A stretch of 58,170 nt of DNA from Gemmatimonadaceae bacterium (lineage in GTDB: Bacteria; Gemmatimonadota; Gemmatimonadetes; Gemmatimonadales; Gemmatimonadaceae), in assembly GCA_030647905.1 (NCBI GenBank), contig JAUSJA010000037.1:76030-134199 (forward strand), written 5' to 3'. Positions 14,323 to 17,011 of the stretch are shown one piece after another. The position numbers and the translations under genes were made by a program. The notes below the pieces were generated by a model. It was not told the DNA's origin. It was given only the letters and a program-made list of their open reading frames with translations, and made no database searches. Numbering within the stretch: the first letter of the stretch is position 1; each line of letters begins with the position of its first letter.

Positions 14323-15037
14323 TCGGACACTTGTCATCATACCGACGTACGACGAGAAGGATAACATCGAGCGGATGATCGCCGCCGTGCTCGCGCAGGA
14401 TCCGTCGATCGACATGCTGGTCGTGGACGATGGGTCGCCTGACGGGACCGGCGATATCGTGGACGCGATTGCGGTGGAGAACCCGCGCGTCCACGCAATT
14501 CATCGCGCGGCGAAGCTTGGACTCGGCACGGCCTACGTGGCCGGGTTCCGTTGGGCGCTGGAGCGCGACTATCAGTTCATATTCGAGATGGATGCTGATT
14601 TCTCTCATTCGCCCGATGCAATCCCGCTTTTCCTGAGCGCCATCCAGAACGCCGATCTGGTGATCGGCTCACGGTACCTGGATGGCCAGGTCAACGTCGT
14701 CAACTGGCCGATGAGCCGTCTCTTCCTGAGCTATTCCGCGAACATCTATGCGCGTCGTGTCACGGGACTCCCGGTATTCGATGCGACCGGCGGCTTCAAG
14801 TGCTTCCGTCGCCGCGTGCTCGAGGCGATAGACCTGGGCGACATCCGCTCCAACGGTTACGCCTTCCAGATCGAGATGACGTTCCGCGCGTGGAAGAAGG
14901 GATTCCGCATCGTCGAGATCCCGATTGTGTTCGTGGACCGGTCCCACGGCGCCAGCAAGATGTCCAAGCGCATCGTACGCGAGGCCGTCTGGATGGTCTG
15001 GCGGCTGCGGTGGTGGGGGATCCGGGGGCGAGTCTGA
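14315..15037 (+). CDS. polyprenol-phosphate mannosyltransferase (DPM1-like)
   Basis: Soluble family 2 glycosyltransferase of 240 residues. It carries LVIIPTYDEKDNIERMI, VVDDGSPDGTGDIVD, FIFEMDADFSHSPDAIP (metal-binding DAD), GSRYLDGQVNVVNWP and SHGASKMSKRIVREA, the pattern of bacterial polyprenol monophosphomannose synthases. It would make a polyprenyl-phosphate hexose for a GT-C transferase, possibly the upstream YfhO-like protein (inference). TTG start overlapping the upstream stop; its TGA shares a base with the dapF ATG. Confidence 0.9.
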   Translation: MTDRTLVIIPTYDEKDNIERMIAAVLAQDPSIDMLVVDDGSPDGTGDIVDAIAVENPRVHAIHRAAKLGLGTAYVAGFRWALERDYQFIFEMDADFSHSPDAIPLFLSAIQNADLVIGSRYLDGQVNVVNWPMSRLFLSYSANIYARRVTGLPVFDATGGFKCFRRRVLEAIDLGDIRSNGYAFQIEMTFRAWKKGFRIVEIPIVFVDRSHGASKMSKRIVREAVWMVWRLRWWGIRGRV

Positions 15038-15876
15038 TGGAATCCAATCGATCTTTTTACAAGATGAGCGGGTCGGGCAACGACTTTGTCTTCTTCGACC
15101 TGAGCGAGGGGCCCGTCGGCCAGCTCGAGTCGGCATCGGCGATCCGGGCCTTGAGCGCGCGCGGAACGGGCGTAGGAGCGGACGGAGTGGTGTTCCTCAA
15201 GCCGGGCGCCGATGATTCATTCACGATGCGCTACTACAACAGTGATGGCTCGCTCGGGGAGCTTTGCGGCAATGCGACTCTCTGTGCCGTGCGTCTGGCC
15301 CATGAGGTCGGCATCGTGCGGGCGGACGAGATATCCATTCAAACCGATGCCGGGATAGTCAGGGGCCGGATGGTGGACGGCCTCCCGGAAATCGACCTGG
15401 CGCCGGTCAGCGAGGTCCGGACCGAGGTTCCAGAGATCGATCGCCTGGCGCGGGAGAGTCTGCTCGGCTTCGCCAGGGTGGGTGTTCCGCACATCGTCAT
15501 TGTGGACGAGGATGCCGAAACGGCGGATATCCTCGGTAGAGGTTCGCGGATCCGGCGCGATCGCTCGCTGAGCGACGGCGCCAACGTGAACTTCCTCACC
15601 CCCAAGCGGGACTGGTGGACGATCCGGACTTACGAGCGGGGTGTCGAGGGCGAGACGCTCGCCTGCGGCACTGGCGCGGTAGCGAGCGCCATCCTGCTGA
15701 CCGAGTGGGGCAGGGCGACTTCTCCAGTGCGCCTGCGGACACGATCCGGGCGCGATCTGGGAGTCCGGGTTCGCCGCGAGGGAGCGCAGTGGTATCCATC
15801 GCTGCGCGGGGGTGCCGACATCGTTTTTTCGGGTCAGATCCGGGATTTGGATCTGACCGTTACCCAGGACCCGTGA
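15037..15876 (+). CDS. dapF: diaminopimelate epimerase
   Basis: Interconverts LL- and meso-diaminopimelate for lysine and peptidoglycan. The 279-residue protein starts at the ATG at 15037, giving FYKMSGSGNDFVFFD at the N terminus. The two catalytic cysteines are in LGELCGNATLCAVRLA and GETLACGTGAVASAI. The open frame upstream belongs to the glycosyltransferase region and is rejected as start. It is the last + strand gene before the dif-like site; the repeat array starts at its stop codon. Confidence 0.97.
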   Translation: MESNRSFYKMSGSGNDFVFFDLSEGPVGQLESASAIRALSARGTGVGADGVVFLKPGADDSFTMRYYNSDGSLGELCGNATLCAVRLAHEVGIVRADEISIQTDAGIVRGRMVDGLPEIDLAPVSEVRTEVPEIDRLARESLLGFARVGVPHIVIVDEDAETADILGRGSRIRRDRSLSDGANVNFLTPKRDWWTIRTYERGVEGETLACGTGAVASAILLTEWGRATSPVRLRTRSGRDLGVRVRREGAQWYPSLRGGADIVFSGQIRDLDLTVTQDP

Positions 15877-15980
15877 CCCGCGACCCGCGACCCGTTACTT
15901 GTGACCCGTTGCCTGTGACCCGTTACCTGTGACCCGTTACCTGTGACCCGTTGGCGGGCAGCGGGTAACGGGTAACGGGA
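15874..15980 (+). repeat. GTTACCC-type short repeat array after dapF
   Basis: Begins at the dapF TGA with three ACCCGCG-like units, then five imperfect 14-base units of the form TGACCCGTTACCTG, then the inverted form GGGTAACGGGTAACGGG. CCCGTTACC near 15930-15940 can pair with GGTAACGGG at 15963-15979, with a smaller stem CCCG-TTGG-CGGG inside, so the array can fold. It could end dapF transcription, but there is no T-run after it. The same G-rich motif recurs at 57303. Confidence 0.8.
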
Positions 15981-16151
15981 ATGGCGACAGTTGATCATCC
16001 GGGCGCTGGCGAAATCAACGCAGTCGGACCGGAAATCGCGAGGAAGTGACGCGCTTTCTAGCTTGGCAGCCTCAAAACCTTCTCATTACAGCACTTAGCG
16101 ACATCCTAACCGGGAAGGACATCCTGTTCTCCACATTTCTCCACCACCAGT
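15981..16151. other. non-coding stretch between repeat array and dif-like site
   Basis: No coding frame, RNA gene or strong promoter is visible. The sequence is less GC-rich than its surroundings and becomes AT-rich toward 16150. Confidence 0.6.
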
Positions 16152-16179
16152 AGTTTACATAACATATATTATACGTTGT
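16152..16179 (-). other. dif: candidate dif site (XerC/XerD chromosome dimer resolution)
   Basis: On + it reads AGTTTACATAA, central CATATA, then TTATACGTTGT: two 11-base arms with the ATAA-N6-TTAT core typical of dif sites. Read on the - strand, the XerD-side arm TTATGTAAACT is, from memory of the published site, identical to that of Bacillus subtilis dif, and about 23 of 28 positions agree overall. It is an AT-rich island in a GC-rich window. All genes to its left are on + and all to its right on -, as expected where replication forks meet. Not tested against a whole-genome skew plot. Confidence 0.75.
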
Positions 16180-16200
16180 TGTAAACTGGGCGCGGATAAG

Positions 16201-16223
16201 GGCGACGGCACAATGCCGTCGCC
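16201..16223 (-). terminator. hairpin after the TPR gene
   Basis: A perfect 10-bp stem GGCGACGGCA / TGCCGTCGCC with a 3-base loop, ten bases after the stop of the - strand TPR gene. In the - direction it is followed by CTTATCC, only a weak T tract, so termination is likely but not certain. It also separates this gene from the dif-like site. Confidence 0.6.
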
Positions 16224-16232
16224 TTCCTGTCG

Positions 16233-16889
16233 TCAGGACTTGGGCTCTACAGCAGCGGTTAGTTCGCCGAGGCGTACACGCGCCTCGCCCGCCACAGTAC
16301 CCTTCGAGTCGGCGCCCAATACGGTCCAGATCTCCTTCGCCTTCGCCTTGTTACCGCCCGTCAGATACGCCCGCGCAGCCAGGCTCTCGTACCGCTGGCG
16401 GTCGGAATCGAACCGCGCGACCTTGGCTGCCTTCTCATATTGTTCGCCCGCTTCGCCGTATTTGTTGAGCTGCTCGAGCCCGCCCGCAAGGACGATATGT
16501 ACTGATGATCCAAGCTCCTTCGAGCCCCCGATCTGATCCTCTGCTTTCCGGAGCTCGGCCACGCCTTGCTCAAATTTGCCCTGGTCGTACATGATCTGAG
16601 CGAGAACCAGCCGGCCCTCCATCGCCGCCGTCGTGCCATCGTACCGGCTCACCATCTTCCTCAGATCGGACTCCGCCAGCGGCAGATTCCCGACGACTAC
16701 CGACCGCTGGGCGGCGAAATATGCCTTTTCGGCACGTTCGGATTTCAACTCCTGCGACCTGTTGTAGAACCATCCGCCGGCGGCGAGGGCAACGACCGCC
16801 AAGCCGCCCCAGGCCACCTGCCTGCTGTGAAGCTGGAACCAGTCCATAAAGGATTCGGAACGCTCTGAGGTCGAGAAAGACGATGTCAT
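16233..16889 (-). CDS. YfgM-like membrane-anchored TPR protein
   Basis: A 218-residue protein with a single transmembrane helix near residues 27-45 (VAWGGLAVVALAAGGWFY) preceded by a cytoplasmic SESFMDWFQLHSRQ segment, then a helical TPR-like region (LAESDLRKMVSRYDGTTAAMEGRLVLAQIMYDQGKFEQGVAELRKA). This is the layout of the YfgM/TPR_21 family, which in E. coli associates with SecYEG and periplasmic chaperones. The ATG at 16889 is chosen; the longer frame would run into the tRNA. It stands alone next to tRNA-Arg. Confidence 0.75.
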   Translation of the reverse strand: MTSSFSTSERSESFMDWFQLHSRQVAWGGLAVVALAAGGWFYNRSQELKSERAEKAYFAAQRSVVVGNLPLAESDLRKMVSRYDGTTAAMEGRLVLAQIMYDQGKFEQGVAELRKAEDQIGGSKELGSSVHIVLAGGLEQLNKYGEAGEQYEKAAKVARFDSDRQRYESLAARAYLTGGNKAKAKEIWTVLGADSKGTVAGEARVRLGELTAAVEPKS

Positions 16890-16914
16890 GTCGTGGATGA
16901 GGTGAAGGTTGTGA

Positions 16915-16988
16915 TGCCCCCGGGGTGACTCGAACACCCGGCCAACGGTTTAGGAAACCGCTGCTCTATCCACCTGAGCTACGGGGGC
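16915..16988 (-). tRNA. tRNA-Arg (anticodon CCU)
   Basis: Folds as a full cloverleaf of 74 nt: acceptor GCCCCCG / CGGGGGC with discriminator A, D arm GCTC..GAGC, anticodon stem GCGGT / ACCGT with loop TTCCTAA (anticodon CCT), and T arm GGGTG-TTCGAGT-CACCC. No 3' CCA is encoded. A recombinase remnant lies 23 bases from its 5' end, so this tRNA may have served as an integration site. Confidence 0.95.
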
Positions 16989-17011
16989 AACGTTGATTTA
17001 TAACGACTTAG

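Follow-up and report, generated by a model that had tools for sequence, protein, structure and literature searches.

Predicted chromosomal dif of a Gemmatimonadaceae bacterium and a probable clade-specific accessory element beside its XerD arm, a putative DnaA site

The window analysed here, a stretch of 58,170 nucleotides from a Gemmatimonadaceae bacterium (G000:C37:76030-134199), carries a 28-mer, AGTTTACATAA-CATATA-TTATACGTTGT (+ strand letters), at 16152-16179, which the first-pass annotation had put forward as a candidate dif site. The 28-mer lies in the gap between two converging genes, and several ORFs in its neighbourhood were confirmed by protein-family matches. From the left, dapF reads toward it (diaminopimelate epimerase, 14800-15876, + strand; TIGR00652, E 1e-54; PF01678); the annotated start of this ORF is probably too far upstream, since the family match begins at residue 85. 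From the right, a gene for a TPR_21 protein reads toward it (16233-16937, - strand; PF09976), and the true start of this gene is probably inside the ORF, as the ORF overlaps a gene for tRNA-Arg (CCT) at 16913-16989 (- strand). A perfect 10-bp inverted repeat at 16201-16223, between the 28-mer and the TPR gene, may terminate the two converging genes. On the dapF side, the region 15854-15979 contains 14-bp tandem repeats (TGACCCGTTACCTG type) together with an inverted copy.

Read on the - strand, the 28-mer comprises a predicted XerC-binding arm ACAACGTATAA (16169-16179), a 6-bp central region TATATG (16163-16168) and a predicted XerD-binding arm TTATGTAAACT (16152-16162). The XerD arm is conserved across the phylum as well as in Firmicutes and other dif sites, and the outer end of the XerC arm is less conserved, as it is in other dif sites; this 11-6-11 architecture with a conserved XerD arm is what identifies a chromosomal dif. 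The position and AT-richness reported earlier for the 28-mer were confirmed, with a GC content of 21% compared to 58-63% in the flanking 300 bp. The 28-mer was the sole match in the 3.1-Mb genome of 37 contigs even when up to three mismatches were allowed (controls, 0), the 134-kb contig contained a single copy of the XerD arm, and one match in the genome was obtained with a looser 15-base dif pattern at one mismatch. Searches for further copies and for a better dif elsewhere, both proposed in the first-pass annotation as checks, therefore returned this locus only. An outer 8-bp inverted repeat (AGTTTACA/TGTAAACT, 16152-16159 and 16180-16187) was not seen in relatives and was taken as chance.

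The cumulative GC skew of the 134-kb contig has its maximum at C37:92077, only 104 bp from the start of dif at C37:92181, and the local GC skew turns from + to - at dif; skew was computed on this one of the 37 contigs and on samples of the complete chromosome of a relative (G070). Large ORFs, read by eye from the ORF list, tile the + strand to the left of dif and the - strand to its right, and tRNA-Arg, 5S and 23S rRNA genes to the right are all on the - strand, in agreement with the switch of gene orientation described at the outset. All six GGGNAGGG octamers in the window (6/6) are directed at dif. The polarity noted earlier thus held, but the count of two did not, and the octamer placed at 672-679 is GGGAAGGG at 673-680. 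Over the whole 134-kb contig, 17/18 octamers were directed at dif (p = 7e-5 against random orientation). The window has about as many of them as chance would give, so that only their polarity is informative. Both the skew switch, which had been named as a check, and the octamers bear out the proposal that this locus is the terminus. Sampled GC skew and GGGNAGGG polarity also switched near dif in the G070 chromosome, where the skew was noisy.

We then compared this locus with those of relatives, as had also been suggested. A strict dif pattern identified a site in 38/60 relatives, and the looser pattern in 278/395 genomes of the phylum, nearly always as a single site in both cases. The separation of dnaA and dif, expressed as a fraction of the circle, was 0.42 in G070, 0.48 in G033, about 0.45 in G079, 0.51 in G069 and 0.44 in G101, which puts dif about opposite dnaA in these five, with dnaA at 125 and dif at 1,930,270 in one 4.64-Mb chromosome and at 1,209,284 and 3,765,224, respectively, in one of 5.31 Mb. 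Other complete or single-contig relatives were off-opposite (G221, 0.26; G107, 0.16; G154, 0.15), and the last two, single-contig chromosomes in which dif is far from opposite dnaA, count against our reading. The genome under study encodes XerD (TIGR02225, above cut-off), a second XerC/D-type recombinase and FtsK-gamma. The xerD gene itself lies at G000:C37:73125-73994 (+ strand), about 18 kb from dif, and in most genomes examined it is found on the XerD-arm side of dif at a distance of 17-46 kb (G012, G070, G041, G075 and G069 are similar; G154 is an exception). The sequence features of 16152-16179 identify it as the predicted chromosomal dif of this bacterium, at which XerCD recombination of the 28-mer is to be expected.

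Beside the XerD arm there are two further conserved motifs, which were absent from the earlier description of the locus. The distal box, TTCTCCACA (TGTGGAGAA on the - strand), occupies 16127-16135 on the + strand at an offset of 16 from the XerD arm, and is an exact TTnTCCACA, of which the 134-kb contig has no other copy. The proximal box, TTCTCCACC (GTGGAGAA on the - strand), occupies 16137-16145 on the + strand, 6 bp from the arm, and has one mismatch to TTnTCCACA. The pair (16127-16145) is arranged as TTCTCCACA-T-TTCTCCACC, and since the boxes are phased by 10 bp, they would face the same side of the helix. Searching the genome for this tandem at 0-1 mismatch gave one match, which was located at dif; 13 matches were seen at 2 mismatches.

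The boxes were then scored at 158 distinct dif sites from families f1-f11 by looking for TGTGGAnAA, at 0-1 mismatch, no more than 40 bp from the XerD arm. A box was present in 46/46 sites of f1, 38/38 of f2, 5/5 of f3, 5/5 of f4 and 13/14 of f6, or 107/108 in total, with 66 exact boxes among these 108 sites, counts that are phylogenetically non-independent. Among the 50 dif sites of f5 and f7-f11 there were no exact boxes, and 5/50 had a box with one mismatch. Matches were low in the controls (XerC side; +200). When relatives were aligned on dif, the XerD-side flank read GTGGAnAA(n)TGTGGAnAA, which is TTnTCCACA on the other strand, with the inner box about 6 bp from the arm and offsets of 15 and 16 bp dominating. 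Columns within the boxes had an information content of 0.5-2.5 bits, compared with near 0 for those beside them, and the profile was flat in the box-less families. The conserved flank spans about 25 bp. In f2 and f3 the tandem is weak, the outer box alone being well preserved, and an inverted TTnTCCAC comes next in 9/14 sites of f6. By eye, the tandem was unseen at the dif of Firmicutes, Myxococcota, Fibrobacterota and other phyla with the same core.

The association of the tandem with dif was also apparent in a search of 50 genomes with one mismatch, where 24 of the 36 matches fell at known dif coordinates and 3 beside parB (manual count); the reversed-pattern control gave 3 matches. Tandem-box searching also led to some unrelated places, including a repeat array of G043 (L261, G043:C1:931423), a regular, CRISPR-like array of ATTTCCGCACTCACCTGAGTGCGGCCCCATTGAAGC with unique spacers.

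The genes around dif are themselves conserved, raising the concern that the flank had been kept simply by descent. In nearly all of the 3-kb loci examined, dapF and the TPR_21 gene both read toward dif, and dapF is kept on the XerD side in two families. The TPR_21 gene is found at dif in the box-less families f5, f8 and f10 too, indicating that this gap holds dif whether or not boxes are present. That the columns between the boxes and around them are random answers the concern about descent. The boxes form an element that is constrained and directional and keeps a fixed register with the XerD arm. As both conserved neighbours converge on dif, we rejected the possibility that the boxes serve as an operator in the promoter of one of them. 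We also set aside the idea that they are degenerate extra Xer half-sites, because the boxes ignore the change in the XerD arm from f1 (AAACT) to f2 (TAAGT).

A seven-genome tree based on XerD, XerC, FtsK and ParB (f4 was left out) parted f5 and f7 from f1, f2 and f6 with high support. This split, along with the absence of boxes in f11 and in other phyla, makes one gain of the boxes the simplest history; one loss in f5 and f7, plus others, is a possible alternative.

The 9-mer matches TTnTCCACA, the consensus of the DnaA box, in which the third position is free, at every constrained position. Two other conserved places carry it. In most f1-f3 genomes looked at, TTTTCCACA overlaps the -35 element of dnaA (TTGACTTTTCCACAT), and G072 has TTATCCACA at this position; the box at the dnaA -35 was absent in the f5 and f7 genomes looked at. 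A conserved TTGACTTTTCCACAT is seen upstream of dnaA in Gemmatimonadales families (e.g. L183, L176, L182, L282). The second place follows parB (L398:2377, L392 and L395, from G000, G012 and G003, and L264 and L265), where TTATCCACA, TTCTCCACA and TTGTCCACA occupy one and the same position in three congeners, with the third base varying freely. Tandem boxes follow parB in G072 and G033, and TTnTCCACA may mark the origin region here. A dense, oriC-like cluster of TTnTCCACA was not found within 1.5 kb of dnaA, so the identification as DnaA boxes rests on the consensus and these two other conserved places.

The DnaA of this bacterium aligns to solved DnaA structures, including the domain IV entry 1j1v, and contains the domain IV motif GGRDHSTV. 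The DnaA of a box-less family has the same motif, which implies that DnaA does not need boxes at dif. Two DnaA matches in one frame occur in several families (G037, G039, G041-G043, G070, G079, G101, G107, G221), none of them in the genome under study; the example in G037 (L188:253-2208, - strand) is a 651-aa protein with two tandem DnaA-like AAA+ domains and no evident DNA-binding domain IV. The boxes, next to XerD, are probably bound by DnaA or by another protein with its specificity.

Taken together, we consider it most probable, at roughly 60%, that the locus is a dif site with a clade-specific accessory element on its XerD side, predicted to be a DnaA site. The strongest competitor, to which we give about one chance in four, is an ordinary dif next to which another clade-specific DNA-binding protein, nucleoid-associated or architectural, has an accessory site that resembles a DnaA box by chance. 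PepA, ArgR and ArcA are accessory factors of this kind at plasmid Xer sites. Such a protein would account for boxes that are confined to a clade, whereas DnaA with its domain IV motif is found throughout the phylum, and it would fit the fixed 10-bp phasing, the fixed distance to the XerD arm and the want of a box cluster near dnaA. It does not readily account for a 9-mer that agrees with the DnaA box, free third base included, in every constrained position, and that recurs in the dnaA promoter and after parB, where DnaA is expected.

An improbable alternative is that the boxes merely titrate or store DnaA at the terminus, with no part in recombination, and adjoin dif since this gap is always terminal. 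DnaA titration sites are known in other bacteria, and the convergent, syntenic gap would suit one. Titration needs no fixed distance, however, and the 15-16 bp to the XerD arm are kept over five families with random bases between; moreover, one or two boxes are few for this purpose. That the boxes are KOPS-like, FtsK-orienting or FtsK-loading motifs is very improbable, for even though they are directional and near dif in a genome encoding FtsK-gamma, one exact TTnTCCACA on the 134-kb contig is far too rare for KOPS, which have to occur often and with a skew on both replichores (PMC2533119), and GGGNAGGG already has the expected polarity.

If the boxes are a DnaA site, as we favour, the following course of events can be proposed. 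XerC and XerD would bind the arms of dif and be activated by FtsK at the septum, and dimers would be resolved where the forks meet. In this clade, dif would have gained an outer element on the XerD side, consisting of one or two tandem TTnTCCACA boxes to which DnaA would bind, adjoining XerD, and from which a passing fork would displace it. While bound, DnaA might modulate the XerD-FtsK interface and so tune dimer resolution to the state of replication, the most weakly inferred step of the scheme. FtsK reaches and activates XerD, and a protein by the XerD arm would therefore be well placed to delay or stage activation. We regard a role of the boxes in recombination as somewhat doubtful, and the fuller proposal, that DnaA beside XerD at dif controls the timing of XerCD-FtsK recombination in a large clade of Gemmatimonadota, as more tentative still. 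If true, it would directly link the initiation protein with the final step of the chromosome cycle.

To our knowledge, chromosomal dif is generally regarded as a bare 28-bp site under the control of FtsK alone. A conserved outer element, gained or lost once in the phylum, would mean that dimer resolution is under a second control in some bacteria, for which DnaA is the leading candidate. Families with and without boxes that have the same recombinases offer a natural comparison, and the box motif sharpens the prediction of dif in the phylum. A dif was predicted earlier for one Gemmatimonadetes genome (Kono et al. 2011, PMC3025954), in a paper where a word search showed no mention of the flank, DnaA or an accessory sequence. 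We found no paper in the open-licence literature joining dif with DnaA boxes, and no earlier description of a conserved box pair at a fixed distance from dif in this clade.

The site shares its 28-bp length, 11-6-11 architecture, single copy, position at the skew switch and XerC, XerD and FtsK-gamma with the chromosomal dif of the XerCD-FtsK systems of B. subtilis and E. coli, but differs from these in the conserved outer boxes on the XerD side. Chromosomal dif has been described as FtsK-controlled, and plasmid Xer sites as FtsK-independent with about 200 bp of accessory sequence bound by accessory proteins (PMC2533119). Like the plasmid sites cer and psi, the locus combines a core site with an adjoining, one-sided element predicted to bind protein; unlike them, its element is about 20 bp long, chromosomal and at the terminus, and in place of the roughly 200 bp with PepA, ArgR or ArcA sites that define the plasmid type, the conserved flank is about 25 bp. 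With the DnaA boxes (TTATCCACA) of oriC, dnaA promoters and datA/DARS, the element has in common the 9-mer TTnTCCACA and the head-to-tail tandem arrangement, but unlike the boxes of oriC and promoters it is situated at the terminus, in fixed register with dif.
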